DNA from: Candidatus Alistipes stercoravium
GTDB taxonomy: Bacteria > Bacteroidota > Bacteroidia > Bacteroidales > Rikenellaceae
Length of the DNA stretch: 64,000 nt
Direction of reading: 5' to 3'
NCBI GenBank assembly: GCA_019119615.1
Contig: DWWQ01000004.1
Coordinates: forward strand, 1 to 64,000
Positions 25,206 through 58,759 of the stretch are shown here, one piece after another (within the stretch, counting starts at the first letter, position 1; every line of letters starts with the position of its first letter). Under the pieces are notes generated by a model, which had not been told where the DNA came from, ran no database searches, and saw only the letters and a program-made list of their open reading frames with translations. The position numbers and the translations under genes were made by a program.

Positions 25206-25277
<72 letters not shown>

Positions 25278-25292
25278 CGATCTTCGAAGAAG

Positions 25293-25322: not shown

Positions 25323-26133
25323 GTGTTTCAGGCCCGGCATCCGGAGAAGGCCCGCCGCTCGGGAGAACAAAAACCCGAATCGAACCTCGGACAACTCTCC
25401 GATCGGCTTCGGAGTCCGCCCCATTCAACTTTGGAACAGACCCGGCTCCGAACGGCTGCAATCCAAGCAAAACGGTCGTTTTCGCACAATTAAACAAAAG
25501 CCATGCATTTTGCTTACAATTTGTTTCTGTTTTCCGCTCCGATACGGTCTGAAAATCCGTATTTCACGGCTTCCTTACACTGAATCCCCTTCGCTTCCGA
25601 TTGCAATACACTGGTAGACAATATATTAATAAAACATCGCCAAATTCGCCAATTTTCATTTCGAATCCAAATACATAGCCCAAACAGACGTAAAAACTAT
25701 TCGAAAAAACGATTTTTTTCATCGTTTTTATATTTTTAACCAACAAATTCCACCGTAACGGCATATTTTAAATACAACATCCGATTATCGCCCCTGCCAT
25801 AAAAACAAAGATCGGATTTACGAAAAGCATATACTAAATAATCATATTTTATAACCAGAATATATTATACACAATGAAAAAAAGGGGTCTTTTTTCATAT
25901 TTTTCATAATAAACCTTGCCTATTTTTCAAGAAAATGCAATAAATTTGAAACAGACGATAACTCCGCTTATTTTCTGCGAATTATATTGAAAAAATTCGC
26001 CGGGGATCGGTTTTCGGAGTGTCAAAATCGCACCATAAGAGCCTTTTTTGCTTATAATCCGGGACTTGCGACTGGCGTCCCCCGTATGATAATATTTCCT
26101 ATATTTGCGCCGCAAGAAAGTCCTTTTTTTCCT

Positions 26134-29082
26134 ATGCAAAGAAAAATTCTACTCTTACTTCTCACACTCTTCGTGTGTGCCATGTCCGTTGCATCCCCGT
26201 CAGGAGGGGGAGGTCTCGTTACCGTCAGCGGTATCGTTACTTCGGCAGAGGACAAACAGCCCCTGATCGGGGTGAACGTGATCTCCGGAGCCACGTCGGG
26301 CGTCTCGACGCTCGCCGACGGAAGCTACTCCATCGAGGTGGCCCCCGGAACCAAACTTCTGTTCCAGTACATCGGTTACAAGGCCGTGGAGTACACGGTC
26401 CCCGACGGAGCGTCGAAGGTAACCTACAACCTCGAGATGCAGAGCGACACGCAGGCCCTCGAAGATGTGGTGGTCATCGCCTATGGCGTCCGCAAGAAGG
26501 GCACCATCGCCGGCTCGGTTTCGACCGTCAAGGCCGAAAAGATCGAAAGCACCCCGACGGCCGCCTTCGACCAGGCCCTCCAGGGTCAGGTCCCGGGACT
26601 TACGGTCCTCTCCAGCTCGGGCGAGCCCAGCGAGTCGGCCGAACTGACGATCCGAGGCACCAACTCGATCAACGCCGGCACCGACCCGCTCTTCGTACTC
26701 GACGGCATCGTCATCTCGGCCTCGGACTTCAACGCCATCAACCCGGCCGACATCGAAAGCCTCTCGGTGCTGAAGGACGCCTCCTCGACCTCGATCTACG
26801 GAGCCCGTGCCGCCAACGGCGTGGTGGTCATCACGACCAAGCGCGGACGCATGGCCGACCATCCGGTCATCAACTACCGCATGCAGCTCGGTTTCTCGCA
26901 GCTCGCCTACGGCAACTGGGACCAGATGAACACCGCCGAGCGTATCCAGTATGAAAAGGAGATCGGCATGACCGAGGGCAAAAACTACGCCCTGTTGAGC
27001 AAGACCGACGTGAACTGGCTCGACGAGGTCTTCAACGACGCCGCCCTGCTCCAGAGCTACGAGCTCTCCGTCTCGGGCGCCAACGAGAAGACGAACTACT
27101 ACGTCTCGGGCGGCTACTACGATCAGGAGGGTATCGCTCCCGGATCGGACTTCAACCGCTACTCGCTGCGTGCGAACGTCGAGCAGCGCGCCGCCAAATG
27201 GCTCAAGGTGGGCACCAACACGCTGCTCAACTACCAGGAGATGGCGCTCGCCCAGTCGGGAGACTACACGATCGTAACGCCGATCTCGGCCGCTCGCTTC
27301 ATGATGCCCTACTGGAATCCGCGCCGTCCCGACGGCTCGATCGCCTCGATCGAGGACGGCAGCTGGAAGGGCGAAGGCCAGAACCCGCTGGAGTGGATCG
27401 AGAACAATCCCGTAAGCTACAAGAAATACAAACTCATCTCGGCACTCTTCGCCGAGGCCACCCCAATCGAGGGTCTGACGATCAAGTCGCAGTTCAACGT
27501 CGATTACTCGCATGCCACGGGCTTCGGCGTCTCCTATCCGGAGTACATGCCCAACCTGGGCGTGGGAACCGCCTCGCGCAACTCTTCCGACGGTCTGACC
27601 CTTTCGGTAACCAACACGGTGAACTACCGTTTCCGCGTCGGTCAGGACCACGACTTCAACTTCCTCGTCGGTCAGGAGGGCATCGACTACCATTACGAAT
27701 CGTTCGGCGTTACGACGCAGGGCCAGAACAACGACAAGCTGACCAGCATCTCGACCGGTACGCGCGCCGTATCGTGGGAGGACGAACTGGACAACGACTA
27801 CGGCTTCCTTTCGTTCTTCGGCCGCGGCGAATACAACTATGCCAACCGCTACTACACCGACTTCTCGATCCGTACGGATGCCGCGTCGCGTTTCGGCGCT
27901 TCGAACCGCTGGGGTGTCTTCTGGTCGGTGGGCTTCATGTGGAACATGCGCAACGAAGCCTTCCTCAAGGATGCCGGCAACTGGCTCACCAACGCCCAGA
28001 TCTCCCTTTCGACGGGTACCTCGGGTAACTCCTCGATCCCCAATTACGAGCACCTGGCTCTGGTATCGGGCGGTCTGGACTATGTCGGCACGGCCGGCAT
28101 CGCTCCTTACTCGCAGGGCAACGAGGAACTCAGCTGGGAATCGACCTGGACGACCAACCTCGGCCTGCACTTCGGCTTCTGGAACCGTCTGAACGTGGAC
28201 CTGGAGTTCTACAACAAGAAGACGAGCGACATGCTGATGTCCGTACCCCAGTCCTACACGGACAACGGATTCGGCTTCCGCTGGGACAACATCGGCGCGA
28301 TGGCCAATCGCGGCGTCGAGATCAACCTCACCGGAACGGTCATCGCCACCGACAACTTCAACTGGTCGCTCAACGCCAACGTCTCCTACAACCAGAACGA
28401 AATCACGGAGCTCTACCACGGCGTTCAGGAGTACGAGATCGCCTCGTCCGACCTGAAGTATGTCGTCGGACACAGCATCGGCGAGTTCTACATCAACCGT
28501 TTCGCCGGCGTAAACCCCGCCAACGGCGACGCCCTCTGGTACACGAAGGACGGAGAGCTGACCAACGAACTGCGCGACGAGGACAAGGTGATGGTCGGCA
28601 AGAGCTTCATCGCCCCCTGGCAGGGCGGCTTCGGCACGAACCTCAGCTGGAAGGGCATCGCCCTCTCGGCCCAGTTCTCGTGGGTGGCCGACCGCTGGAT
28701 GATCAACAACGACCGCTACTTCGACGAGTCGAACGGACGTTTCGCCTCCTACAACCAGTCGAAGCGTCTGCTCAACCGCTGGAAGGAACCCGGCGACATC
28801 ACCGACATCCCGCGCCACGGCGTCTACACCGAGTTCGACAGCCGTCTGCTCGAGGATGCCTCGTTCCTGCGTCTGAAAAACCTCATGCTCAGCTACACCT
28901 TCCCCAAGGAGCTGCTCGGCAAGACCCGTTTCATCAGCGGCGTGAGAATCTACGCCCAGGCCCAGAACCTGCTGACCTTCACGAAGTTCTCCGGACTTGA
29001 CCCGGAGGGCAACAGCAACCGCTACGCCGCGGAGTACCCGATGACCCGCCAGTATACGTTCGGTCTCGACTTAACCTTCTAA
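26134..29082 (+). CDS. SusC/RagA family TonB-linked outer membrane protein
   Basis: Signal peptide; carboxypeptidase-like domain (VSGIVTSAEDKQPLIGVNV), plug (TIRGTNSINAGTDPLFVLDGI...VLKDASSTSIYGARAANGVVVITTKRG). Confidence 0.96.
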   Translation: MQRKILLLLLTLFVCAMSVASPSGGGGLVTVSGIVTSAEDKQPLIGVNVISGATSGVSTLADGSYSIEVAPGTKLLFQYIGYKAVEYTVPDGASKVTYNLEMQSDTQALEDVVVIAYGVRKKGTIAGSVSTVKAEKIESTPTAAFDQALQGQVPGLTVLSSSGEPSESAELTIRGTNSINAGTDPLFVLDGIVISASDFNAINPADIESLSVLKDASSTSIYGARAANGVVVITTKRGRMADHPVINYRMQLGFSQLAYGNWDQMNTAERIQYEKEIGMTEGKNYALLSKTDVNWLDEVFNDAALLQSYELSVSGANEKTNYYVSGGYYDQEGIAPGSDFNRYSLRANVEQRAAKWLKVGTNTLLNYQEMALAQSGDYTIVTPISAARFMMPYWNPRRPDGSIASIEDGSWKGEGQNPLEWIENNPVSYKKYKLISALFAEATPIEGLTIKSQFNVDYSHATGFGVSYPEYMPNLGVGTASRNSSDGLTLSVTNTVNYRFRVGQDHDFNFLVGQEGIDYHYESFGVTTQGQNNDKLTSISTGTRAVSWEDELDNDYGFLSFFGRGEYNYANRYYTDFSIRTDAASRFGASNRWGVFWSVGFMWNMRNEAFLKDAGNWLTNAQISLSTGTSGNSSIPNYEHLALVSGGLDYVGTAGIAPYSQGNEELSWESTWTTNLGLHFGFWNRLNVDLEFYNKKTSDMLMSVPQSYTDNGFGFRWDNIGAMANRGVEINLTGTVIATDNFNWSLNANVSYNQNEITELYHGVQEYEIASSDLKYVVGHSIGEFYINRFAGVNPANGDALWYTKDGELTNELRDEDKVMVGKSFIAPWQGGFGTNLSWKGIALSAQFSWVADRWMINNDRYFDESNGRFASYNQSKRLLNRWKEPGDITDIPRHGVYTEFDSRLLEDASFLRLKNLMLSYTFPKELLGKTRFISGVRIYAQAQNLLTFTKFSGLDPEGNSNRYAAEYPMTRQYTFGLDLTF

Positions 29083-29091
29083 TCAACAGCC

Positions 29092-30633
29092 ATGAACAAG
29101 TTCTTACGCAATATCAAACTCGGCATCCTCGCGCTCACGGCGCTCGTCGGCATGAGCTCCTGTCTGGACAAGTATCCCGGCAGCGCCATTCCCGAGAAGG
29201 ATGCCATGCAAACCTTTGCCGACGCCGAGCAGCATCTGATCGGCATCTACGCACAGCTCATGAGCGGCGCACTGTACAGCGGGTACCTCACCCTGCTGCC
29301 CGATATCCAGTGCGACCTGGCCTATGCCGTCGAGGGCAACTCGAACACCTACGGCGACTTCTGGCTCTGGAAGGTGCGCCCGACGGACCTCCTCATCCAG
29401 GATGTCTACGCCCAGCTCTACGCCGTAATCGGCGCCTGCAACTTCTACCTCGACCGCATCGACGACGTCGTGGCCCGGGAGACGAGCGACACGAACCTCG
29501 AAACGCTCGACCAGTACACCGGCGAGGTGCATGCCATCCGCGCCCTCTGCTATTCGGAACTCATCAAGTGCTTCTGCGAGGCCTATGACCCCTCCCGCGC
29601 CGAACAGCAGCAGGGCGTCGTGCTGCGCACGAAATATTTCGAGAAGGAGCCCGTCAAACGCGCCTCGCTTTACGATTCCTACCGCTTCGTGCTCGACGAT
29701 CTGACCGTTGCCGAGGAGCTCATGGACGAGGACGAGGATACGCCCAACAACTACTACATGTCGCAGGCCGCCGTGCAGGCCATCCGCGCCCGCGTGGCTC
29801 TCTACATGCAGAACTGGGAGGAGGCCATCAAGTACTCGAGCATCCTGCTCGACGACAAGAAGGATACGTTCGAACTCACCTCGTTCCAGGATACGGCTCC
29901 CGACGGCGCCACCACGTTCGACTACATGTGGGCCTATGACCTGGGCTCGGAGGTGATCTGGCGCATCGGTTTTACGAGCACCTCCTACGGAGGCGCCCTG
30001 GGCACCGTTTTCCTCAATTTCAACCGCGACTATACCTACTTCTACCCCGATTATGTTCCGGCCCAGTGGGTGCTCGACGCCTACGAGGACAACGACCTGC
30101 GCGGCGAGAGCTACTTCGCCGACTCGGACGACGGCATCACCATCGGCTACACGAACGGCCTGGAGTGGCCGCTGCTGGTCAAGTACTACGGCAACCGCTC
30201 GATCTTCATCCCGCAGCGTATCTTCCAGGTTTCGATGCCCAAGCCGCTGCGCCTGGCCGAGCAGTATCTGATCCGTGCCGAGGCCTATTGCCGGCAGGCA
30301 AGCCCGCGCGCGGATCTGGCTCAGAAGGACCTCGAGACGCTGCGTGCCACCCGGTTCCTGTCGGGCGGCATGATCAACCTCTCGGGCAACTGGCAGACCG
30401 ACGTGAAGACCTTCTCCGAGGAGCGCGTGCGCGAGCTCTACATGGAGGGCTTCCGCCTGCAGGACCTCAAGCGCTGGGGCCTGGGATTCGAGCGTACGCC
30501 GCAGTCCTGCACCCAGGACGAGGGCAACAACCTCCGCATCGAAGCCGGCGACCCGCTCTTCGTATGGCCCATTCCCCAGCACGAACTGGAGTCCCCGGGA
30601 TCGGAGATTACCCCCAACGAAAGCAACAAATAG
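29092..30633 (+). CDS. RagB/SusD family lipoprotein
   Basis: Lipobox GMSSCLDKYPGS; SusD-like helical architecture; C-terminal RVRELYMEGFRLQDLKRWG; directly after susC. Confidence 0.93.
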   Translation: MNKFLRNIKLGILALTALVGMSSCLDKYPGSAIPEKDAMQTFADAEQHLIGIYAQLMSGALYSGYLTLLPDIQCDLAYAVEGNSNTYGDFWLWKVRPTDLLIQDVYAQLYAVIGACNFYLDRIDDVVARETSDTNLETLDQYTGEVHAIRALCYSELIKCFCEAYDPSRAEQQQGVVLRTKYFEKEPVKRASLYDSYRFVLDDLTVAEELMDEDEDTPNNYYMSQAAVQAIRARVALYMQNWEEAIKYSSILLDDKKDTFELTSFQDTAPDGATTFDYMWAYDLGSEVIWRIGFTSTSYGGALGTVFLNFNRDYTYFYPDYVPAQWVLDAYEDNDLRGESYFADSDDGITIGYTNGLEWPLLVKYYGNRSIFIPQRIFQVSMPKPLRLAEQYLIRAEAYCRQASPRADLAQKDLETLRATRFLSGGMINLSGNWQTDVKTFSEERVRELYMEGFRLQDLKRWGLGFERTPQSCTQDEGNNLRIEAGDPLFVWPIPQHELESPGSEITPNESNK

Positions 30634-30654
30634 TAACCACATAGCAGATCGATC

Positions 30655-31593
30655 ATGAAACGAATCATAACGTTCCTCTTTGCGACGGGGCTCTCCGGGC
30701 TGCTCGCCACGGGTTGTCAGGAGGAGTACAAGACCTATTCCGAAGGGGAGTATGTCATGTTCCCGGACTCCGTTTCGCTCAACATGGTACTCGAGAACCA
30801 GGAGTACTTCCCGGTTCCCGTCTCCACGACCCTCGCCTGCGACTACGACCGCACGTTCGGCGTGGAGGTCATCGACCAGGGCAGCACGGCCATCGAAGGC
30901 CTGCACTACCGCCTGGCATCCAACACGATCACCATTCCGGCCGGCAAGCGTTCGACCGAGGTGCTCGTACACGGAAACTATGAAAACTTCGAACCCTCCG
31001 ACACGCTGCAGTTCACACTCAAGTTGGTGATGCCCGAGCAGCTGAAATGGGACCTCTATCAGGATCAGACCCGCGTGCGGATGCTCAAGGGCTGCACGTT
31101 CCACATCGAGGACTTCACCGGCTGGTGCGTGGTAACCTCGAATTTCCTGCAGAGCTATCCCGGTGTCGAGAACACCAGCGTACAGCGGCTGATCTACTCC
31201 GAACAGGATCCCGCCGATCCGACGACGATCATCCTGCACGACTGGCTCTTCACGGGCTACGACGTGAAAATCTCGTTCGACGCGGAGGATCTCTCCCTGC
31301 CGCTGGTATCCATGCCCGGAGACCAGATATTGAGCGACGAGCTCTCGGTATTCGGACAGATCAACGGAGACAACAAGATTCTCGTAACGAACAGCCCCAA
31401 CTACTACTCGTTCTTCGATACCTGCGCCGGGAACGTGAAACTCTGGAGCTATGTCTATGTCTATGACATGGGCACGCCCGTAGGCACCGTCGGAACCTTC
31501 TACAACATCATGGAGTGGGTAAGCGACGAGGAGGCCGACCGCCTGGTGCGCGAGGACGGCATGCAAAAGCACGGAGGCCCCGCCAACGAATAA
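30655..31593 (+). CDS. DUF4843-like lipoprotein
   Basis: Lipobox LLATGCQEEYKTYSEGEYVMFPDSV; third gene of a SusCD cluster. Confidence 0.7.
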   Translation: MKRIITFLFATGLSGLLATGCQEEYKTYSEGEYVMFPDSVSLNMVLENQEYFPVPVSTTLACDYDRTFGVEVIDQGSTAIEGLHYRLASNTITIPAGKRSTEVLVHGNYENFEPSDTLQFTLKLVMPEQLKWDLYQDQTRVRMLKGCTFHIEDFTGWCVVTSNFLQSYPGVENTSVQRLIYSEQDPADPTTIILHDWLFTGYDVKISFDAEDLSLPLVSMPGDQILSDELSVFGQINGDNKILVTNSPNYYSFFDTCAGNVKLWSYVYVYDMGTPVGTVGTFYNIMEWVSDEEADRLVREDGMQKHGGPANE

Positions 31594-31625
31594 AAAAATG
31601 AAAATAAAATAAAAACGATACGACT

Positions 31626-33704
31626 ATGAAAAAAAAGTATTTGCAGCATCTCTTTCTGGCAATGTTTGCCGGGGCGGCTCTCCTGCAGAGCGCATGTGCC
31701 GACAGTGATTCGGAGGAAAAGTTGCCGGAACCCAATTTCCCGGTCAAAACGACCCTCGGCATCGAAATCGGAGGGACGTGCACGATTCCCATCGAGCCCA
31801 ATCAGGAGTGGTCGGTGAGCATCGACCAGAATGAAGCCGGCGAATGGTTCTGGCTCGACGACGACGGTCTGACGGCCTACACCCTGCGCGGCAAGGCCGG
31901 ACAGCACACCATCACCGTCTGTGTTTCCGACAAGGAGGAGTACGATACGGACCGCAGCATCGACGTTTCGATGACCATGGGCGGACAGACACAGATTATC
32001 GCCACCGTTGTCCGCGGCACCGTGGAGCGCCAGTTCGATCTCTACGCCGGCGAGCAGTCGGGATTCGGCGAGATCACCTACGAGGAGCAGCCCGTCGATG
32101 CGGCGCAGACGACGCTCGTCATTCCGTGGAAGGAGAATGTCATGGAACCCGAAAACCTCCCCATCAAGATCGCAGCGAACTTCCCGTGGCGTCTCGACAC
32201 GAAGCCCGAATGGATCGCCGAAATCGCCCCCTCGGAGGGCAAGGCCGGCGAGACGGTAGAGATCCTGCTTTCGGGAGATCCCGAAGCCTATCCGCTCGAG
32301 GATACCGAAAGCGAACTCGTCTTCTGCGACTACAACAACAACGACGTCAAATACTCGTTCCGGATCTCGATCCCCGGATGCAAGGACAAGGAACTGACGA
32401 CCATCAACCAGGGTATGACCTATACGTTCAATGCCGCCGGAGAGTATGGAAAGGGCGGCATCGGCAGCACGAGCTGGACCCTTTACGGCCCCACGTTCCA
32501 GACTACGGCCGCCAAACTCACGACCGAATCGGGAACCTTCGGATACCAGCTTTACGTCCTCGAGAAAAAGGAACTCTTCGAGGGCTTCTATCAGTACGGC
32601 ATCTGTAACTGGGTGGAAATCCACGAGACCCTCCTTTCGGGCAACGACGTTCTCGTTACCACGGAATACCGGCTGACGGCCGATGCCAATCCGGGAAGGT
32701 TCCGCCCGGCAGCACGCTCGGCATCCGTCGTGCTGCTTCCCGCCGAACTGGCCAAGGACGTAACTTCGGCACAGGATCTGATCGAACCCGATCCCAATAC
32801 CTACATCCCGTCGCTCAAGGAGGCATACCGTCCCTACGAGCTGGCTACGATCACCCAGGATGCCCCGATCAGCTCGCTCTTCTCGGTACGCGACCTGCAG
32901 GGCATGGAGAGCTCGAACACCACGTTCCGGCAGCTTACCTATGCCGAAGACGGTGCGCTCCCCGAAGACATGGCCAGCATTTTCGGCACACCGAACGAAC
33001 AGAACTACCTGATGACCTATACGAGCGAAAACTCCTATGCATCGGTCATCTACGATCAGAGTCTGGACGGATTTACCGTAAGATTCTTCGACGAGCAGTT
33101 CATGCCGATGCAGTCGGCGTCCGGATGGCTCAGCATCCGCAAAGACGACGCTTTCGTAGACTCGGAGGGCAATGCCGTAACGGCACAGAGCTTCGACATC
33201 CTCATGGAGAACGTTTCGGAGAACAAGACCGGATATGCCGTTCTCTATGTGGATAACCGACCGAAGGCCGCCATCTGCTGCAAGACCGACTCGGGCAGCA
33301 GCGCCGGCTCGTTCCAGGCCGAAATCACCTCCGACAGTCCCAACAGCTATCTGGAGCCCATCACGAACACCAATTTTGCAGAAATGGCCTCCATGCTCAA
33401 GGATGCCATCGGAAAGGATCTGAAGAGCGAATTCGAGGAGAAACTCGCCGTCGGTTCGGTCATTTACCTGCTCACTTCCGTCCCGGGAGAAGCCATTACG
33501 GTAACGACCACTCCGTTCAACCCCAACTACCTGCAGATCATCCCGTATGTGGACACCGAATGGCTGAATGCCGAGGTAACCAGCGAGACGACGCTCAACA
33601 TCAAGATGGATACCCCGCAGGGTTCGACCAAATACGCTACGATCAACTTCTACGAGGGAGCGGACTACGCATCGGGCATCATCTACTGCGTACCGCTGCC
33701 GTAA
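31626..33704 (+). CDS. Large surface-type lipoprotein of a SusCD cluster (possibly DUF5003-like)
   Basis: Lipobox LLQSACADSDSEEKLPEPNFPVKTTLGIEIGGTCTIPIEPNQEWSVSID; two BACON/Ig-like N-terminal modules. Confidence 0.6.
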   Translation: MKKKYLQHLFLAMFAGAALLQSACADSDSEEKLPEPNFPVKTTLGIEIGGTCTIPIEPNQEWSVSIDQNEAGEWFWLDDDGLTAYTLRGKAGQHTITVCVSDKEEYDTDRSIDVSMTMGGQTQIIATVVRGTVERQFDLYAGEQSGFGEITYEEQPVDAAQTTLVIPWKENVMEPENLPIKIAANFPWRLDTKPEWIAEIAPSEGKAGETVEILLSGDPEAYPLEDTESELVFCDYNNNDVKYSFRISIPGCKDKELTTINQGMTYTFNAAGEYGKGGIGSTSWTLYGPTFQTTAAKLTTESGTFGYQLYVLEKKELFEGFYQYGICNWVEIHETLLSGNDVLVTTEYRLTADANPGRFRPAARSASVVLLPAELAKDVTSAQDLIEPDPNTYIPSLKEAYRPYELATITQDAPISSLFSVRDLQGMESSNTTFRQLTYAEDGALPEDMASIFGTPNEQNYLMTYTSENSYASVIYDQSLDGFTVRFFDEQFMPMQSASGWLSIRKDDAFVDSEGNAVTAQSFDILMENVSENKTGYAVLYVDNRPKAAICCKTDSGSSAGSFQAEITSDSPNSYLEPITNTNFAEMASMLKDAIGKDLKSEFEEKLAVGSVIYLLTSVPGEAITVTTTPFNPNYLQIIPYVDTEWLNAEVTSETTLNIKMDTPQGSTKYATINFYEGADYASGIIYCVPLP

Positions 33705-33717
33705 CACGCCGCAATAC

Positions 33718-33742
33718 GGTACCCCCGCTTGTCGGGGGTGCC
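33718..33742 (+). other. Intra-operon stem-loop without U tract
   Basis: GGTACCCCCG-cttgt-CGGGGGTGCC, 10-bp stem with one GU. Confidence 0.7.
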
Positions 33743-33785
33743 GGTTTACCAACATCATTCACCGTAAATTAGCGCAAATTCATAC

Positions 33786-36491
33786 ATGAAACTATTCAAA
33801 ACCGCCGTAATGCTGATCGTCGGGCTGGCGCTCGGGTTCTTCGCAGGATGCACGGACGACGACGGAATCGACAACCGCGATCTGGATTACGGGTACGTTC
33901 AGTTCAAGTTGTACAAGGAGGCCTCCTATGAAGCCCCCCAGGACGATGCGACTCAGACACAATCCCGGGCCGTCAAGCCCCAGCTGGATTACCTTGCGGA
34001 AGCCAGCAAGGTCCAGGTAACGCTCTCCAGCGGCGAAGAGACGATCGTCCAGACGCTCACGCTTTCGGCCGCCGATGCCGAAAGCGCCGAATACGGCATG
34101 CGGAGTGCCAAACTCAAGCTCCTTACGGGCAACTACACGATCACCCGCTTCACGCTTTTCGATGCCGAGGACGGGGAACTCTACAACGGCAATGCCGTCG
34201 ATCCCGATCTGACGGTCGTCGCCGGAGGACTCACTGTTCACGACCTTACGGTAAATGTCCAGCCGCGCGGCAAGGTGCGCTTCACCCTCACGAAGGACAT
34301 GTCCGGATTCAATCCGCCGAAGAGCCGCAGCGGAGTCTCCCGCCAGTACATCTTCGAGGAGATCGGATCGTTCGACATTACGGTCAAGGATACCGAAACG
34401 AACAACCTCGTATCGTTCGAAAAACTGCCCGTAACCTTCTCGATCCATTTCGACGATCCCGAAAATACGGAAACCGCTCCGGGATATCAGACCTCGACCT
34501 GCGCCTGCGACTCGCTGCTCTCGCTTCCGGCCGGAAACTATGCGGTCATCAAATATGTTACCTACGACAGCGACGGCACCCTGCTCGAGACCAATACCGC
34601 TCCGGCCGAGTCGCCCTTCACGGTCGAGGACAACCGTACGACCGACAGCGACGTCGCCGTTACGCTCTACGAGGCCGACGAATACATGAAGGACCACTAT
34701 GCGCTCTACGCGATCTGGAAAGCGCTGCACGGCGATGAGTGGTCCTACCAGGGCGAGAACTACCCCGTCGGATCGAACTGGGACTTCAACAAGGACCCCG
34801 ACCTGTGGAGCTACCAGCCGGGTGTCGAGGTCCATACCAACGGACGTATCGCCATGATCGACATCAGCGGCTTCGGCTTCTCGGGCGACATGCCCAAGGA
34901 GCTCGGACAGCTCACCGAGCTCGTAGAGCTCTATCTGGGCACGCACAACGACACGAACGTCGGCTTCAAGGATCCGACGCTCGATCCCGACCAGAGCCTC
35001 ACCGAGCGTTCGCGCAACCGCATGGAGAACCATCGCGCCCTGCTGCACGCCATGCACCCGGCCACGCAGATGTCCTGGCCCTGCGCCTTTGCGCTGCGCG
35101 AGCACGGCATCCACATCCGCGCCACGGAGCTCTACGACCAGGGCTACACCGAGGATCAGATCTTCGAGGCCTCGACGGGCCGCCAGCGCGACATCCGTCC
35201 GATGGACACCTCGCACGGCAAGCTCTGCAACGGGCTCCGGTCGCTGCCCGCCGAGATCGGCAACCTCAAGAAGCTCGAGTACCTCTATATCGCCAACAGC
35301 GCCATCGAGTCGCTTCCCGACTACGAGGGCGAAGGCCGCGAGGGCATGTCGGGACTGGCAGCCTGCACCGATTTCGAGGTGTACAACTGCCCGAACATGA
35401 AGAAGTTCCCGCGCGCTATCGCCAAGATGCCGAAGCTCGTTGCCGCGAACCTCTCGAACAACAAGCAGTGGGAGGCCCAGGATCTCCACGACGGACTGAC
35501 CGAACTGGCCGAAGGTCCCTCGAAGGAGACCCTGCAGATGCTCTACCTGACGGACAACAGCCTCGAGGAGCTGCCCGCCTCCTTCCGGAACTTCAAGCGT
35601 CTGGGTCTGCTCGACCTGACGCGCAACAACATCCACACGCTCCATCCGCTGGGCGAGGAGGTTGCTCCCGTGGAGCTGGTCTTCAGCCACAACCAGATCG
35701 AGGAGATCCCCGTCGACGAGAACGGCCGGTTCTGCAACATGGACGATCTGACCGAGTTCTCCTTCTCGTTCAACAAGCTGAAGAAGTTCCCCAACATCTT
35801 CAGCTCGGAGATGATCTCCGCCATCTCGAACGTCGACTTCTCCTACAACGACCTGCAGGACTATACCGACGAGGAGGCTGCCGCCTTCAAGGGCATCTAT
35901 GTCCAGACGCTCACCCTGGCCGGCAACCCGGGACTGACGAAATATCCCAAGTGGCTCGGCGACTCCGACTCGGAGGTGTCGTACATCATCCTGCGCGGCT
36001 GCGGCCTCACGGAGTTCCCCGAAGGGTGCTTCGAGGGCAAGTATTCGAGCCGTCTGATCTCGTTCGACCTGACGTACAACCGCCTCACGGATCTTCCCGA
36101 CGACTTCTCGGCCGACACGCTCCCCTACCTCTACGGTCTCGACCTGTCGCAGAACGCCTTCGCGAAGTTCCCCTACGAGCCGATGACCTGCAAGGGGCTG
36201 ACGGTCTTCGCCATCCGCGGCCAGCGCGACGAGCAGGGCGAACGCTGCCTGAGGGAGTGGCCCACGGGCGTCTACCAGCACACCGGTCTGCGCGGCTTCT
36301 ACATCGGTTCGAACGACCTGCGCAAGATCGACGACACGATCTCGACGGCCATCTGGACGCTCGACATCAGCGACAACCCCAACATCACGTTCGATGCTTC
36401 GGATGTCTGCTACGCCTGGGAGAACGGAGCCTATATCCTCATTTACGACAAGACGCAGAACATCACCAACTGCGAAGCGATGCTCGAATAA
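33786..36491 (+). CDS. Leucine-rich-repeat lipoprotein (DUF4458-like N-terminus)
   Basis: Lipobox LGFFAGCTDDDG; LRRs such as LQMLYLTDNSLEELPASFRNFKRLGLLDLTRNNIHTL. Confidence 0.8.
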   Translation: MKLFKTAVMLIVGLALGFFAGCTDDDGIDNRDLDYGYVQFKLYKEASYEAPQDDATQTQSRAVKPQLDYLAEASKVQVTLSSGEETIVQTLTLSAADAESAEYGMRSAKLKLLTGNYTITRFTLFDAEDGELYNGNAVDPDLTVVAGGLTVHDLTVNVQPRGKVRFTLTKDMSGFNPPKSRSGVSRQYIFEEIGSFDITVKDTETNNLVSFEKLPVTFSIHFDDPENTETAPGYQTSTCACDSLLSLPAGNYAVIKYVTYDSDGTLLETNTAPAESPFTVEDNRTTDSDVAVTLYEADEYMKDHYALYAIWKALHGDEWSYQGENYPVGSNWDFNKDPDLWSYQPGVEVHTNGRIAMIDISGFGFSGDMPKELGQLTELVELYLGTHNDTNVGFKDPTLDPDQSLTERSRNRMENHRALLHAMHPATQMSWPCAFALREHGIHIRATELYDQGYTEDQIFEASTGRQRDIRPMDTSHGKLCNGLRSLPAEIGNLKKLEYLYIANSAIESLPDYEGEGREGMSGLAACTDFEVYNCPNMKKFPRAIAKMPKLVAANLSNNKQWEAQDLHDGLTELAEGPSKETLQMLYLTDNSLEELPASFRNFKRLGLLDLTRNNIHTLHPLGEEVAPVELVFSHNQIEEIPVDENGRFCNMDDLTEFSFSFNKLKKFPNIFSSEMISAISNVDFSYNDLQDYTDEEAAAFKGIYVQTLTLAGNPGLTKYPKWLGDSDSEVSYIILRGCGLTEFPEGCFEGKYSSRLISFDLTYNRLTDLPDDFSADTLPYLYGLDLSQNAFAKFPYEPMTCKGLTVFAIRGQRDEQGERCLREWPTGVYQHTGLRGFYIGSNDLRKIDDTISTAIWTLDISDNPNITFDASDVCYAWENGAYILIYDKTQNITNCEAMLE

Positions 36492-36513
36492 CCTTTAAGA
36501 ACGTACGCAAATC

Positions 36514-38154
36514 ATGAACGCAAAAACCTATATAGCGATTTTTCTCTGCGCACTCGTCGCCGTCGGTTGTACGGACGACAAGAAGGTCGGCGTGAAGATC
36601 GACAACGACACGATCGAGATCGGTGCCGAGGGCGGAACCCGGAACATCCGGATCACGGCCGACGACCAGTGGGTCGCCTTGACGAACGATCCCTGGATCA
36701 CCATCTCGCCGGCCAACGGCCGCGGCTCGGCCGTCTGCCAGATCATCATCGACTCGGCCCTGCTCAACGAACCCCGCCAGGGCATGGTGCGCATCCAGAA
36801 CCAGAACAACTGGGAGGAGCGCCGCGACATCTCCATCTCGCAGCAGGGTTTCGACTACGCCATTACGCTTGAGAGCCCGCAGGTCAACATCGCCAACTAC
36901 GCCGCACTGGGCGCTCGTACGTTCGACGTACGCGTGAAGACCAACGTCGATTTCGACATCGAGATTCCCGAAGAGGCCCAGTCCTGGCTCCGCTCCGAGG
37001 AGTATCAGGTCAATCTCGACCGGGGTGTGCGTCCCCGCGAGGTAACCCTGCGCTTCAACTGGGAGATCAATTCGCGCGACACGGAACGCAACGCCTCCAT
37101 CGTTTTCAAACCCCGCAAGGAGGTGCAGCTTGCCACGCAGGACGGCCTGACCGTACGACAGAACGCATCCGAGCCGATCGACGTCGGGACGCGCGCCGGA
37201 GACTCCGTAGCGCTGCTCTCGATCGCCCGCGCCCTCGACATGTGGCAGTCGTGGGAAACCTCCGAGAGCATGGCGAACTGGGACAACGTGGAACTCTGGG
37301 AAAAGGATATGGAAGGATGTACGGACGACATGGTCGGCCGCGTAAAATACGCCCGTTTCTACATGTTCAGCACCAAGGAGGGTATTCCGTTCGAGGTTCA
37401 GTACCTCACGGCCGCCAACGAACTGGTCTTCTATTCGAATACCAACTCCACCCTCTACAACCTCTCCACGGGAGAGCACATTTCGAAGCTCAAGCAACTC
37501 AAACGGCTGACCATCGGCGCATACGGACTTACCGAACTGGATCCTTCGTTCAAGGAGCTCAAGAGCCTCGAATACCTCAATCTCTCGGGCAACAACTTCG
37601 AGAATATTCCGTCGGTACTCACCAAGGAGAATTTCCCGAATCTGCATGCCCTGCGGCTGAATACCAACCAGCGCATCATCATCTACGACCTTTACAACTC
37701 GACGACCACCAATTTCGGCGGTCTGTTCCAGGAGACGAGCGAAACGCGTGAATTTCCGCGCCGCCTGCTCGAATGGGACAAGCTCGATACGCTGGTGCTC
37801 TCGGTGAACTACCTCCAGGGCCGCATTCCCGACATGAAGGACTACACGACCTACACGCAGGCCGACATCAACGCCGCAGACTCGCTGCCACAGGCGCTGG
37901 TGGGCATTCCGAAGGTGCTTCCCAACATCAAGCGCTTCTCGATCAACCTGAACCGTCTGACCGGAGAGCTCCCCGAATGGCTGCTCCGCCACCCGGCACT
38001 CGACTGGTGGGACCCCTTCACGCTGGTCTTCACCCAGGAGGGCAAGGACAAGGAGGGCAAGACGGCAGGATTCACCAACGAGCCGATCAACCTGAACGAC
38101 TACTACGAATTCTACGAGGGAAAGAAGTATCTCGATCCCAACCGGAAAGAGTAG
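36514..38154 (+). CDS. BACON-domain plus leucine-rich-repeat lipoprotein
   Basis: Lipobox LVAVGCTDDKK; BACON-like ITADDQWVALTNDPWITISPANGRG; LRR LKRLTIGAYGLTELDPSFKELKSLEYLNLSGNNFENIP. Confidence 0.78.
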   Translation: MNAKTYIAIFLCALVAVGCTDDKKVGVKIDNDTIEIGAEGGTRNIRITADDQWVALTNDPWITISPANGRGSAVCQIIIDSALLNEPRQGMVRIQNQNNWEERRDISISQQGFDYAITLESPQVNIANYAALGARTFDVRVKTNVDFDIEIPEEAQSWLRSEEYQVNLDRGVRPREVTLRFNWEINSRDTERNASIVFKPRKEVQLATQDGLTVRQNASEPIDVGTRAGDSVALLSIARALDMWQSWETSESMANWDNVELWEKDMEGCTDDMVGRVKYARFYMFSTKEGIPFEVQYLTAANELVFYSNTNSTLYNLSTGEHISKLKQLKRLTIGAYGLTELDPSFKELKSLEYLNLSGNNFENIPSVLTKENFPNLHALRLNTNQRIIIYDLYNSTTTNFGGLFQETSETREFPRRLLEWDKLDTLVLSVNYLQGRIPDMKDYTTYTQADINAADSLPQALVGIPKVLPNIKRFSINLNRLTGELPEWLLRHPALDWWDPFTLVFTQEGKDKEGKTAGFTNEPINLNDYYEFYEGKKYLDPNRKE

Positions 38155-38192
38155 CCATCGGATTATTCAACGCATAAAACAGACAACGAAAG

Positions 38193-40253
38193 ATGAAAAA
38201 AGAGATATACGGCATTTGTATCGCAGCCCTGCTTGCTTTCGGCGCCTGCGCGACCGACGAGCTTCCGACGCCTTCGGAACCGCGGCTCGAAACGCCGGAG
38301 CAGAACGAGCCCGTCTCGGGCGAGGTGCTCGTAAAGTTCCAGAGCTACGTCAGCGACATGCTCGACCAAATGGAGGCCCGGACCCGCAGCGGCGCTCCGG
38401 CTACCCGTTCGGGAATCCTCTCCGTGGACGAAGTCCTGGACCTTATCGGCGGCTATGAAATCGAGCGCATCTTCCCGGTCGATGCCCGCACCGAAGAGCG
38501 CACGCGCGAAGCGGGACTCAACCTCTGGTATGTGGTGCGTTTCAACAAGGAGTACAGCGTCGAGGAGGTCATCGCCCGCCTTTCGCAACTCGGAGAGGTA
38601 CAGTATGCCAACCCCAACCGCAAGATCCAGCGTGCCTACAGCAGCGAACGCAAGGCCACGCCCCTGACGCGCGAGACGCTCGAAATGCTCAAGCGCCGCA
38701 CAGCCGGCACGCGTGCCGGAGCCTCCTTCAGCGACCCGCTGCTTCCGATGCAGTGGAATCTGGTCAACGACGGCACGATGTTCACCGGCACGGAGGCCTG
38801 CCCGCAGGCGAAATCGATCGCCGGCGCCGACGTTCGGTGCCAGGAGGCCTGGAGCGCCTCGACGGGCGATCCGTCGATCATCGTCGCCGTGCTGGACGAG
38901 GGTGTCTGCCTGACACACCCCGAGCTGGCCGCGAACATCTGGACCAACGAAGATGAAATCGACGGTTCGAAAAAGGACAACGACGGCAACGGATATGCCG
39001 GCGACATCCACGGATACAACTTCGTAACCAACACCGGTATCATCACCTGGGACGATCTGAACGACACGGGCCACGGCACGCATGTCGCCGGCGTCATTGC
39101 CGCCATGAACGGCAACAACGAGGGTATCTGCTCGATCGCGGGAGGCACGCCCTCGCAGCCGGGCGTGAAGATCATGTCATGCCAGATTTTCGCCGGAAAC
39201 ACCGGAGGCAACTCCATGTCGTCGGTCAAGGCGATCAAATACGCCGCCGACAACGGTGCGGTCATCCTCCAGTGCAGCTGGGGTTATACCTCCGGTACGG
39301 CCAACAGCTATGAGTGGGGTTCGCCGGGCTACGCCAACGAGGAGCAGTGGGAAACCCTCGCTCCGCTCGAAAAGGACGCCATCGATTACTTCACCCACAA
39401 CGCCGGATCGCCCAACGGCCCCATCGACGGCGGTATCGCCGTCTTCGCCTCGGGCAACGAGTACGCCAATACGGCAGGATTTCCCGGTGCGGCCAGCATG
39501 TGCGTTTCGGTAGCCGCCACGGCCGCCGACTACACGCCCGCCACCTACACCAATTACGGCGGCGGCACGAAGATCTCGGCCCCGGGCGGCGACCGCGACT
39601 ACTACTGGGATTACGGCGAAGGCGCCCTGCGCGGTGAAACGGGCTGCGTGCTCTCGACGCTTCCCTACAACGTCAGCGAAACCGGCTACGGCTACATGGA
39701 GGGCACCTCGATGGCCTGCCCGCACGTCTCGGGCGTCGTGGCTCTGGGCCTTTCGTATGCCGCCCAGATGCGCCGCCACTTCACGGCCGAGGAGTTCCGC
39801 GAACTGCTCTACCGGACCGCCACGCCGATCGACTCCTACATCACCAGCACGAAGTTCTACTACCGTTACGCCTACGACATGGGGCTCACCAACCCCACGC
39901 AGATGATGCTCACGAACTATACGGGAAAGATGGGTACCGGACAGGTCAATGCCCGGCAGCTGCTTGACGCCGTCGCGCAAGGCGGCGTGCAGATGCGCTT
40001 CCCGAACCTCTACATTCCGCTTGAGGGTTCGGTAACGGAGCGTCCGGCCGTTTACTTCCTCGACGGCGAACAGCTGACCTACACCGTGCAGATCGACGAC
40101 GGGAGCATTGCTACGGCAACGCTCGAAAACGGCCTGCTCACCGTCAAGGGCCTCAAGGAGGGCTCGACGCATGCGTCGATCTCGGCCGGCAGCCAGACGC
40201 AGTCGTTCAATATCACCGTCCGCAAGTCGGCAAACGGAAACGGATGGCTTTAG
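38193..40253 (+). CDS. S8 family subtilisin-like serine protease lipoprotein
   Basis: Lipobox LLAFGACATDE; catalytic motifs AVLDEGV, GHGTHVAGVIAAMNG, GTSMACPHVSGVVALG; N-terminal propeptide-like region. Confidence 0.95.
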   Translation: MKKEIYGICIAALLAFGACATDELPTPSEPRLETPEQNEPVSGEVLVKFQSYVSDMLDQMEARTRSGAPATRSGILSVDEVLDLIGGYEIERIFPVDARTEERTREAGLNLWYVVRFNKEYSVEEVIARLSQLGEVQYANPNRKIQRAYSSERKATPLTRETLEMLKRRTAGTRAGASFSDPLLPMQWNLVNDGTMFTGTEACPQAKSIAGADVRCQEAWSASTGDPSIIVAVLDEGVCLTHPELAANIWTNEDEIDGSKKDNDGNGYAGDIHGYNFVTNTGIITWDDLNDTGHGTHVAGVIAAMNGNNEGICSIAGGTPSQPGVKIMSCQIFAGNTGGNSMSSVKAIKYAADNGAVILQCSWGYTSGTANSYEWGSPGYANEEQWETLAPLEKDAIDYFTHNAGSPNGPIDGGIAVFASGNEYANTAGFPGAASMCVSVAATAADYTPATYTNYGGGTKISAPGGDRDYYWDYGEGALRGETGCVLSTLPYNVSETGYGYMEGTSMACPHVSGVVALGLSYAAQMRRHFTAEEFRELLYRTATPIDSYITSTKFYYRYAYDMGLTNPTQMMLTNYTGKMGTGQVNARQLLDAVAQGGVQMRFPNLYIPLEGSVTERPAVYFLDGEQLTYTVQIDDGSIATATLENGLLTVKGLKEGSTHASISAGSQTQSFNITVRKSANGNGWL

Positions 40254-40254
40254 G

Positions 40255-41061
40255 ATGCGGCGCGGCGGAACGATAGCGATGCTTTGTGCCGGATGGGCGT
40301 GTGCGATGTTCCTCGCCATGCCCCTCCGGGCACAGGTGCCGCATATTCCGCAGGCGCTGCGTGACAGTCTGGCCCATCCGCCCCAGGCCGAAGGCCGCGA
40401 GGCGATGCGTTTCGAGCGCATGCGCATTGAGACGGGCGAGATCCGCGAGGAGGCCACGCCGCCGAGTTTCACCTACCGCTGGACGAACGCCGGCGAACGG
40501 CCGCTCGTCATCACCCGCGTGGAGACCACCTGCGGATGCGCCGCGGCCTCGTACGACCGGCGGCCGGTGCTTCCGGGCGGCGAGGGGAGCATTACGGTAA
40601 CGTACCACCCGAAGCGGCATCCGGGTTATTTCCGGCGGCGGATCTTCGTCTTCACGCAGCTCTCGGAGAAACTCCCCACGGCGATTCTCGAACTCACCGG
40701 ACGGGTTATCCCCGCGGCATTGCCGACGGCGGACTATCCCTATGCGATGAACGCCCTGCGGCTCAAGCAGCAGGAGGTGCATATCGCCGGAGACCGAGCG
40801 CAGACCGAGCGCATCGAGTGCCTGAATGCCGGCGAGGAGCCGCTGCGCATCACGGCAGACAGCCTGCTGCTCCCGCCCTACATCCGCTTCGAATGCGACC
40901 CGCAGCGGCTGGAGCCCGGAGCGACGGGCGACCTGGTCATCCGCTTCGACCCTTCGAAAGCCCCGGAGCGCCTGCCCGAGCAGCTGCCCGTCATCCTGCA
41001 GGGCGTCGGGCTCACGCCGCGGCAAAGCACCGTACGCATCCGCTTCGGCACATCGCGCTGA
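40255..41061 (+). CDS. Exported DUF1573 protein
   Basis: Signal peptide; FTYRWTNAGERPLVITRVETTCGCAAASYDRRPVLPGGEGSITVTYHPKRHPGYF. Confidence 0.82.
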   Translation: MRRGGTIAMLCAGWACAMFLAMPLRAQVPHIPQALRDSLAHPPQAEGREAMRFERMRIETGEIREEATPPSFTYRWTNAGERPLVITRVETTCGCAAASYDRRPVLPGGEGSITVTYHPKRHPGYFRRRIFVFTQLSEKLPTAILELTGRVIPAALPTADYPYAMNALRLKQQEVHIAGDRAQTERIECLNAGEEPLRITADSLLLPPYIRFECDPQRLEPGATGDLVIRFDPSKAPERLPEQLPVILQGVGLTPRQSTVRIRFGTSR

Positions 41062-41103
41062 CGAATCCACAAACAAGAATTTGACAAAAAGTAACGATAC
41101 AGC

Positions 41104-41571
41104 ATGAAAAAACTTCTGAAACTGACCCTCCTCGCGGCTGCCGCACTCTGTCTGGGCGCCTGCGACGAAGACAAGACCTACGAGGATCCCGGCCTGGAGG
41201 TTACGCCTCACAACATCTCCGGGACCTGGCAGCTTGCCGAATGGAACGGCACGACGCTCGCCGAAGGCAGCTATGTCTACATCGAGTTCACGCGCAAGGA
41301 CCAGCTCTTCACGATGTACCAGAATCTGGACAGCTTCTCGGCGCGCAAGCTCACGGGACGCTACGACATCACGACCGACGTCGAGCTCGGCGCCATCATC
41401 ATGGGTGCCTACGACTACGGCATCGGCGACTGGGGACACCGCTACATCGTCTCGGACCTCTACGAGGATACGATGGTCTGGACGGCCCAGGACGACCCGA
41501 CGATCGTCTCGGTGTATAAGCGCTGCGACGCGATACCCGGCGAGATCACCGGCGCTGCGGCGGAAGAATAG
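41104..41571 (+). CDS. Small lipocalin-like lipoprotein
   Basis: Lipobox LCLGACDEDKTYED; ISGTWQLAEWNGTTLAEGSYVYIEFTRKDQLFTMYQ. Confidence 0.6.
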   Translation: MKKLLKLTLLAAAALCLGACDEDKTYEDPGLEVTPHNISGTWQLAEWNGTTLAEGSYVYIEFTRKDQLFTMYQNLDSFSARKLTGRYDITTDVELGAIIMGAYDYGIGDWGHRYIVSDLYEDTMVWTAQDDPTIVSVYKRCDAIPGEITGAAAEE

Positions 41572-41595: not shown

Positions 41596-41625
41596 AAAAA
41601 GGGATACCTTCGGGTATCCCTTTTT
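41596..41625 (+). terminator. Rho-independent terminator of the Sus/protease operon
   Basis: AAAAAGGGATACC-ttcg-GGTATCCCTTTTT. Confidence 0.9.
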
Positions 41626-43912: not shown

Positions 43913-44009
43913 AGGGGATTACATTTCCGTTAAATATCGGCAGGCAGGATGTAACATGCGGGATTGTTGCGTACTTTTGAGGCGTAAACGATCCGTAAAC
44001 CTTGCAGTT

Positions 44010-44690
44010 ATGGCAAAATACAAAATTCTCGTGGTCGATGACGAGGAGTCACTGTGCGAGATCCTGCAGTTCAACCTTGAAGTCGAAGGATACGAAGTCG
44101 ATGTGGCGAACAGCGCCGAACAGGCCCTCGGCATGCACCCCGAGCGTTATTCGCTGATCCTGCTCGACGTGATGATGGGCGAGATCAGCGGCTTCAAGAT
44201 GGCCCAGATGCTCAAGACGAACCCCGGCACGGCGAACATCCCGGTGATCTTCTGCACGGCGCGCGACACGGAGGACGACACCGTCGCCGGATTGAACCTC
44301 GGGGCCGACGACTACATCGCCAAGCCCTTCTCGATCCGCGAGGTGCTGGCCCGCGTACGCAGCGTGCTGCGCCGCACCTCGGCCGCACAGCCCGCCGCCG
44401 AACGCATCGGCTTCGAGGGGCTGGAGATGGACCTACGCCGCAAGGTCTGCACCCTCGACGGCGAGGAGGCGCCGCTCACCAAGAAGGAGTTCGAGATCCT
44501 GGCCCTGCTGCTCGCCCACCGCGGCACGATCTTCTCGCGCGAGGAGATCCTCCACCGCATCTGGAGCGACGAGGTGGTCGTCCTCGACCGCACGATCGAC
44601 GTGAACATCACGCGCCTGCGCCGCAAGATCGGCCCCTACGGCGAATACATCGTAACGCGACAGGGTTACGGATATGGCTTCAAAGGTTAG
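44010..44690 (+). CDS. OmpR/PhoB-family response regulator
   Basis: KILVVDDEESLCEILQFNLEVEGYEVD, LILLDVMMGEISG, winged-helix C-terminus. Confidence 0.94.
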   Translation: MAKYKILVVDDEESLCEILQFNLEVEGYEVDVANSAEQALGMHPERYSLILLDVMMGEISGFKMAQMLKTNPGTANIPVIFCTARDTEDDTVAGLNLGADDYIAKPFSIREVLARVRSVLRRTSAAQPAAERIGFEGLEMDLRRKVCTLDGEEAPLTKKEFEILALLLAHRGTIFSREEILHRIWSDEVVVLDRTIDVNITRLRRKIGPYGEYIVTRQGYGYGFKG

Positions 44691-46116
44691 GCTCTCCTAC
44701 CACAGGCAGCTTTTCCTGCTGCTGCTGGTGTTCCTCTGGACACTGGTAGCCAGTTTCGTGCTTTTCCAGTACGGCCGCGAACGGCATTTCAAGGCCGAAC
44801 GGCTCGATGCCCACCTGCAGCTGATCAACCTCCGGATGCTCGACGCGCTGGACAACGGTGTCGAACCGTCCGTCTTCTCGACGCGCTGGAAAGGGCCCTT
44901 CGAGGAGCTGCGCGTTACGCTGATCGACCGCGAGGGCAACGTGCTGTTCGACAACTCCCTCGACACGCTCCCCGGGACGAACCACCTCAACCGCCCCGAG
45001 GTGCGGAGCGCCCTGCGCAACGGCACGGGATACATCATCCGCCGCCATTCGGAGAGTACGCAGCGCAACTACTTCTACTCGGCCATGGCCGACGAGCAGC
45101 GGATCATCCGCACGGCCGTGCCCTACTCCGTCCCGCTTTCGGAGATGCTCGCGGCAGACCCCGCCTATCTGTGGTTCATGGTGGGTATGACGCTGCTGAT
45201 GAGCATCGCGGGGTACTTCGCCACGCGGCGCCTGGGGCAGAACATCACACGGCTGAACGAATTTGCCCGCCGCGCCGAGCGGGGCGAGTGGATCGACCAG
45301 ACGGACAGCTTCCCCCACGACGAGCTGGGCGACATCTCCCGCCACATCGTACAACTCTACGCCGACCTGCAGCACACGGCGGCCGAACGCGACCGCGAAC
45401 ATGCCCTGGCGCTGCACGAGGAGCAGGAGAAGATCCGCATCAAGAAACAGCTCACGAACAACATCAACCACGAGCTGAAAACCCCGATCGCCGCCATCCA
45501 GGGCTATGTGGAGACCCTGCTGGCCAACCCGGAGCTCGAGCGGGAGCGCCGCACGGCCTTCCTCGAAAAGAGCCTCCAGCAGGTCGAACGGCTCCGCCAC
45601 CTGCTGGCCGATGTCTCGACCATCACGCGCATGGACGAGGCGAGCCAGCTCTTCCAGCGGGAACCCGTCGTACTGAACGAGCTGATCGAGGAGGTCGTCG
45701 CCGACATGGAGCTCCGTCCGGAGGATCAGCGGCTGCGCGTACATGTCGATTTCCCGAAGCGCGTGGAGGTCTTCGGCAGCGCCTCGCTGCTCTCGTCGAT
45801 CTTCCGCAACCTCGCGGACAACGCCGCAGCCTACTCGGGCGGCCGCGACCTCTACATCCGCCTGACGGACGATACCGCCGAGAGCTGCACGATCCTGCTG
45901 GCCGACAACGGCATCGGTGTCGAGGAGGAGCACCTGCCGCATCTTTTCGAACGCTTCTACCGCGTGGACAAGGGTCGCTCGCGCAAGCTGGGCGGCACGG
46001 GCCTCGGGCTGGCCATCGTGCGCAACGCCGTGGCGTTCCACGGCGGGACGATCTCGGTCCGCAACCGCGAAGGTGGAGGTCTGGAGTTCCGCTTTACCCT
46101 GCGCAAATATTCATAG
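44674..46116 (+). CDS. Sensor histidine kinase
   Basis: Two TMs, HAMP, NNINHELKTPIAAIQGYVETLL (H box), GTGLGLAIVRNAV; overlaps the RR gene. Confidence 0.94.
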   Translation: MASKVRLSYHRQLFLLLLVFLWTLVASFVLFQYGRERHFKAERLDAHLQLINLRMLDALDNGVEPSVFSTRWKGPFEELRVTLIDREGNVLFDNSLDTLPGTNHLNRPEVRSALRNGTGYIIRRHSESTQRNYFYSAMADEQRIIRTAVPYSVPLSEMLAADPAYLWFMVGMTLLMSIAGYFATRRLGQNITRLNEFARRAERGEWIDQTDSFPHDELGDISRHIVQLYADLQHTAAERDREHALALHEEQEKIRIKKQLTNNINHELKTPIAAIQGYVETLLANPELERERRTAFLEKSLQQVERLRHLLADVSTITRMDEASQLFQREPVVLNELIEEVVADMELRPEDQRLRVHVDFPKRVEVFGSASLLSSIFRNLADNAAAYSGGRDLYIRLTDDTAESCTILLADNGIGVEEEHLPHLFERFYRVDKGRSRKLGGTGLGLAIVRNAVAFHGGTISVRNREGGGLEFRFTLRKYS

Positions 46117-56746: not shown

Positions 56747-56826
56747 AACGTATTTTTAGAAATTAGGTTTCGGCACAGGCAACCGCCCGCCGGAGCCGAT
56801 GGCAACGGTCCGGTGCGATCTATCTG

Positions 56827-56834
56827 CAAATATA
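56827..56834 (-). promoter_or_regulatory. Bacteroidota -7 box (TATATTTG) for the GH20 pair
   Basis: CAAATATA on plus strand, upstream of GH20 gene at 56746. Confidence 0.45.
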
Positions 56835-56983
56835 ACAGTTTCAGCGAAAGAAACCGCCTGTTCGGGCCGAAAATCGGGTAAATCGCACAAAAAAAGCGGG
56901 CTTTTCCCTCCGAATCCGCACCCGGGCAGCAAAAGGGGCCCGCCGCAAAGCGGCGAGCCCCCGTGCAAATACCCGGCAGCGGA

Positions 56984-58747: not shown

Positions 58748-58759
58748 GTTGTCGCTTTT

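Follow-up and report, generated by a model that had tools for sequence, protein, structure and literature searches.

Nine co-directional genes of Candidatus Alistipes stercoravium (Rikenellaceae), located in the 64,000-nucleotide stretch of contig DWWQ01000004.1 analysed here (the window), are proposed to encode a RagAB-like system for peptide uptake that includes a surface subtilisin of its own; a small lipocalin-like lipoprotein would be the dedicated partner of the protease, and a probability of roughly 0.6 is assigned to this reading. Across the loci compared, the tightest partner of the S8 subtilisin is the lipocalin-like lipoprotein, not the SusC/SusD pair or the leucine-rich repeat (LRR) proteins, and this pairing is the most testable part of the findings. 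While glycan utilisomes have been shown, the harvest of protein at the cell surface by gut Bacteroidota is much less known. Rikenellaceae are common gut bacteria, and the operon, being compact, conserved and present in a single copy, would lend itself to a joint study of protein capture, cutting and import. The linkage between S8 and lipocalin genes furthermore leads to a specific hypothesis on how such proteases are restrained.

Layout of the operon

The features of the locus, with the evidence for each, are as follows.

25206-25278: tRNA-Thr, 5' of the locus
26100-26108, +: candidate Bacteroidota-type -7 promoter element TATATTTGC ahead of SusC (pattern match)
26134-41571, +: nine genes in one direction (ORF listing)
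26134..29082, +: SusC/RagA-type TonB-dependent outer-membrane transporter, 982 aa (TIGR04056; RagA 601 bits)
29092..30633, +: SusD/RagB lipoprotein lid, 513 aa (PF07980, PF14322; lipobox SSC-LDKYPG)
30655..31593, +: DUF4984 lipoprotein, DUF4843 sub-threshold, 312 aa (PF16372)
31626..33704, +: gene 4, large fast-evolving BACON/DUF5003-type lipoprotein, 692 aa (domain matches in orthologues)
33786..36491, +: DUF4458 + LRR_10 + LRR lipoprotein, 901 aa (Pfam; solved structures 4ecn, 4eco)
36514..38154, +: gene 6, BACON + LRR lipoprotein, 546 aa (Pfam)
38193..40253, +: S8 subtilisin lipoprotein with Peptidase_S8_N propeptide, 686 aa (PF00082, Peptidase_S8_N)
40255..41061, +: DUF1573 Ig-like protein with ordinary signal peptide (Pfam; ATG at 40255)
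41104..41571, +: small Lipocalin_4 lipoprotein, 155 aa (PF13648)
41596-41625, +: intrinsic terminator hairpin, 13-bp stem, UUCG loop (z -3.7, 0 shuffles equal)

The initial annotation had described a co-directional set of nine genes with short gaps, closed by one terminator and devoid of carbohydrate-active and dedicated regulatory genes, and this description was upheld throughout. All the reading frames lie on the plus strand with gaps of 1-81 nt (successively 9, 21, 32, 81, 22, 38, 1 and 42 nt), the terminator was confirmed against shuffled sequences, and no CAZyme, sigma/anti-sigma or hybrid two-component gene occurs between tRNA-Thr and 41.6 kb. The promoter/terminator scan did not call the 41596-41625 hairpin, probably because the stem absorbs the T-run. 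Element TATATTTGC lies 26 nt 5' of the SusC ATG, and its pattern occurs at 14 sites in the window against 2.5 expected; inspection of the region upstream of SusC gave no clear -33 partner. TATATTTGC is a putative SusC promoter element, and the nine genes are inferred to share a single transcript.

By sequence inspection, the nearest regulator-like genes encode a response regulator and a kinase (43956-46116); they lie past the terminator and two biosynthetic genes and just 5' of a phosphate-permease-like ORF. No conserved regulator adjoining the operon was seen in the flanks of the loci compared; these flanks recur only inside small groups of loci and differ between groups. On the minus strand, 11 kb downstream of the operon (52347-61861), there is a SusC/SusD locus of the conventional type, which encodes two GH20 beta-hexosaminidases and is a probable N-acetylhexosamine or mucin glycan locus. 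The genome, of an Alistipes species, measures 2.1 Mb, is 93% complete and holds one S8 protein (PF00082), one Lipocalin_4 protein (PF13648) and 14 SusC proteins above the cut-off. Its closest named relatives are Candidatus Alistipes faecigallinarum, whose S8 is 94% identical, and another Alistipes MAG.

A lipobox close to the N-terminus, its cysteine soon followed by at least one acidic residue, is present in seven of the nine proteins (SusD through S8, plus the lipocalin protein). Acidic residues at this place fit surface export in Bacteroidota, and a surface location is predicted for the lipoproteins of the operon; the DUF1573 protein is probably periplasmic.

Importer and predicted surface lipoproteins

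Pfam and NCBIfam searches agreed with the first assignments of SusC, SusD, the LRR and BACON+LRR lipoproteins, S8, DUF1573 and the lipocalin-like protein. SusC matches TIGR04056 with 807 bits and is encoded 9 nt from the adjacent SusD homologue, the arrangement of a SusCD-type nutrient uptake locus; none of the nine genes encodes the CAZyme that would define a polysaccharide utilization locus. When compared with solved structures, the window SusC matched RagA of P. gingivalis best (601 bits) and the dextran SusC 8AA4 (PMC7618045) next (381 bits), being closer to RagA than to either the dextran or the levan SusC. Three control SusC proteins of the same genome preferred 8AA4 (368-416 bits) and scored just 214-322 bits with RagA, which places the window SusC on the RagA side of the family. 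Its identity to the other SusCs of its own genome is 26-30% where the match is near full length. RagAB imports gingipain-cleaved peptides (PMC11817032), and the affinity of this SusC to RagA is compatible with peptide import, yet specificity is not proven by similarity. The SusD lid shows no preference for RagB over other SusDs, with 49 bits for RagB and 50-55 bits for the four best of the others.

Two of the earlier assignments for the accessory lipoproteins stood in part. Gene 3, annotated as DUF4843-like, belongs to DUF4984 (PF16372, 140 bits); DUF4843 matches only below its cut-off, and DUF4984 replaces it as the identity of the protein. Gene 4 had been called a BACON-type lipoprotein, and its orthologues do match BACON and DUF5003, but gene 4 itself has no Pfam match and no detectable BACON domain. 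An AlphaFold model of gene 4, built from a six-row alignment, reached a pLDDT of 53 and contained beta-sandwich domains only; its Foldseek matches were discarded as generic Ig-type hits with low TM-score. Gene 4 is a probable surface ligand-binding protein. The large LRR protein contains the DUF4458 domain twice, and its closest solved structures are 4ecn (522 bits over 868 residues) and 4eco.

Gene 4 also stands apart in its evolution. Its protein is 74-75% identical to those of two near relatives, as compared with 89-98% for the remaining genes, and the identity drops toward the C-terminal part. Its dN/dS is the highest of the operon, but dS is raised as well (0.54-0.73 versus 0.06-0.47 in the other genes), which rules out positive selection as the sole cause of the divergence and points to an exchange of divergent alleles. 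Next to it, about 34800-36400 (1.6 kb), the large LRR gene is 100% identical to that of Candidatus Alistipes faecigallinarum. The mosaic at 31626-36491 suggests allelic exchange at a surface-exposed protein.

These lipoproteins bear on the strongest of the rival explanations, according to which the protease trims a heavily glycosylated, mucin-like host protein, the SusCD pair imports glycopeptides or glycans and the BACON-type proteins bind sugar. The BACON-type domains of gene 6 and of the gene-4 orthologues, the GH20-containing SusCD locus in the same window and the peptidase BT4244-M60L inside a B. theta mucin locus (PMC11992087) are in keeping with such glycoprotein foraging; however, the operon has no CAZyme and its SusC is nearest to a peptide importer rather than to the dextran or levan SusC, so that we regard this explanation as unlikely.

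The subtilisin, its neighbours and their distribution

The S8 protein matches PF00082 with 133 bits, the sole such match in the genome, and carries a Peptidase_S8_N propeptide. The intact Asp/His/Ser motifs noticed at the outset were found to be invariant: Asp235, His294, Asn422 and Ser506 are present in 24/24 aligned orthologues, so that the catalytic triad, the oxyanion Asn and the S8 fold together identify a subtilisin. The lipobox is situated at residue 20, N-terminal to the propeptide, which implies that ordinary self-maturation would free the catalytic domain if the propeptide did not remain bound to it; the mature enzyme could be surface-bound or released by self-cleavage. As for the T9SS export signature, the family profile search gave no C-terminal sorting-domain match in this S8, which has a lipobox instead, and PorV-like neighbours were found only with long S8 genes, beside some of which they stand. 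In genus g2 of the same family, long S8 genes form tandem arrays with as many as ten genes inside 30 kb (L108, L109 and L113; L numbers designate the loci compared).

Conservation of the gene order in relatives had been set beforehand as a test, and the order proved to be conserved. An S8 protein match was obtained in 183/250 genomes of the family, and among the matches listed 123 of the 125 other Rikenellaceae genomes that have the large LRR gene carry S8 directly downstream of it on the same strand. About 20 loci that were read over their whole length keep the full nine-gene order, and two loci from two other families (L101, L115) have the same nine genes in the same order. Since the order persists across loci with differing flanks, selection probably maintains it, as opposed to chance on a single contig. 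For S8 and the other operon genes, the distance matrices correlate at 0.88-0.96, values that shared species history alone would also yield. In several relatives a tenth large lipoprotein, with no Pfam match or with DUF4988 and absent in the window, is encoded 3' of the lipocalin gene (L079:17612-19501, L101:1741-3657, L115:17335-20000).

The idea that the locus is built around the subtilisin did not survive. In L102-L104, from two other families, genes 1-6 occur in the same order with no S8, DUF1573 or lipocalin gene at the locus, and each unit closes with a different LRR lipoprotein and a lipoprotein roughly 350-400 residues long. As this LRR transporter unit exists without the subtilisin, S8 is to be seen as an add-on module. 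The SusC of the S8-less unit (L102) is equally RagA-like, with 597 bits for RagA, and import would thus not need the S8 protease. S8 relatives (600-760 residues) are, in turn, also encoded apart from the nine-gene operon. L157-L159 hold a second SusCD operon type of Alistipes, ordered SusCD-x-S8-lipocalin, whose SusC is not RagA-like (350 vs 388 bits); here 'x' is an unknown lipoprotein of ~790 aa, followed by S8 and the lipocalin gene (L157:5221-14595), and in L157 and L158 the operon is flanked by additional SusC-like ORFs. At L112:2200-14495, a SusCD operon includes a TIGR04549 zinc metallohydrolase lipoprotein, DUF4302 and an S8-lipocalin pair, and in L128, L129, L132, L133, L139 and L140 the pair was found with no SusCD neighbour detected.

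The lipocalin-like protein matches PF13648 with 23.6 bits (cut-off 22.4), or 25.0 bits in the genome search, where it is the sole match. In a sample picked for resemblance to S8 or LRR genes, without regard to the lipocalin gene, a lipocalin-domain gene was located nearby on the same strand in 42/42 short S8 genes and in 0/18 long ones. The partner may stand upstream or downstream of S8, alone or fused to other domains, and in L163 and L164 it is divergent from the short S8. Two further short S8 genes have no detectable lipocalin neighbour and one lipocalin gene has no S8 (L160, L161, L162), which refutes a strict rule that both always pair and brings the overall tally to 44/46 short lipoprotein S8 genes with a lipocalin-domain gene nearby. 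Among 34 Alistipes genomes, a full-length lipocalin-profile match was present in 16/16 with this S8 and in 0/18 without it; the latter gave short, weak matches only, and four of them carry another S8 type. Of the LRR-subtilisin partnership first envisaged, the conserved position beside the LRR genes stood, but S8 is most tightly linked to the lipocalin gene. That the pairing is retained while the genes are re-ordered suggests a functional partnership, and the lipocalin-like lipoprotein is probably a partner or inhibitor of S8. Its AlphaFold model had a pLDDT of 38, too low to establish a fold.

The distribution of S8 also bears on two less probable alternatives. One of them makes the subtilisin a processing or defence enzyme, which matures surface proteins of its own cell or destroys antibodies, complement, bacteriocins or phage while the SusCD pair imports something else. 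It would explain the S8-lipocalin pairs found away from any detected SusCD neighbour, as well as the allelic divergence of gene 4, expected for a surface under attack; however, S8 is fixed in the transporter operon of 123/125 of the genomes listed with the large LRR gene and recurs in other SusCD operons, and we consider such a role improbable. Least probable of all is that the RagA-like/LRR importer and the S8-lipocalin pair are independently useful and merely have a common promoter and different substrates, because, although either is found without the other (L102-L104; L128-L142), they are stably joined in three families and the S8 pair has been joined repeatedly to different SusCD operons.

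Proposed mechanism and related systems

In the favoured peptide-uptake machine, the RagA-like SusC barrel and its SusD lid would form a TonB-driven pedal-bin importer, surrounded by the DUF4984, gene-4 and two LRR lipoproteins, which would bind a protein or glycoprotein target. As a predicted lipoprotein zymogen, the subtilisin would cut this target into oligopeptides for import via the SusCD pair, and DUF1573 would act, probably, in the periplasm. The lipocalin-like lipoprotein would most likely be an anchored inhibitor or chaperone of S8, sparing the cell's own surface proteins. Substrate, cleavage, import and the role of the lipocalin protein are all inferred. The peptide or glycoprotein uptake proposed by the initial annotation is favoured by the conserved order, by a RagA-like SusC unlike the three controls of the genome and by the recurrence of S8 in SusCD operons; it is modified by the add-on character of S8, by the closer link of S8 to the lipocalin gene and by the position of the lipobox ahead of the propeptide. 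A more far-reaching and tentative version, to which we give well below even odds, is a protein utilisome with a RagAB-type importer, LRR capture proteins and subtilisin in one surface complex, whose lipocalin-like lipoprotein would be the founding member of a family of anchored regulators, cognate to the lipoprotein subtilisins of Bacteroidota and carried along with them into several kinds of SusCD operon.

Of the known systems, RagAB of P. gingivalis resembles the operon in its SusC followed by a SusD/RagB-family lid, whereas the operon adds four lipoproteins, the S8 protease and the lipocalin-like protein. In P. gingivalis, the gingipains are encoded apart from RagAB. The levan and dextran systems of B. 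theta are outer-membrane utilisomes of polysaccharide utilization loci (PMC7618045); they share with the operon a SusCD core and co-encoded surface lipoproteins, of which one binds and another cuts the substrate. Here, in contrast, a protease replaces the glycoside hydrolase, and CAZymes and a dedicated regulator are absent.

Inh/AprI, the staphostatins and the potempins of Tannerella, the last being lipoproteins, are examples of small barrel inhibitors whose genes adjoin that of a secreted protease. The operon likewise encodes a small, predicted lipocalin-like protein beside an extracellular protease, a neighbourhood that holds for 44/46 short S8 genes, although the protein has no family match to these inhibitors. 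By analogy, this suggests inhibition or chaperoning of S8 by the lipocalin protein.

The collection of literature searched contained nothing relevant on the gene set, its Pfam families or B. theta BT0206-0212, and within that scope the operon is uncharacterised. SusCD loci with co-encoded peptidases are nevertheless already known, and the gene set is therefore not of a new kind: besides BT4244-M60L, whose locus also has CAZymes, they include loci with TIGR04549/Peptidase_Mx1 and SusCD loci of Petrimonas with M60 and S15 genes (PMC7768429). The operon differs from them in its S8 subtilisin and LRR lipoproteins, while L112 unites both peptidase types, TIGR04549 and S8.
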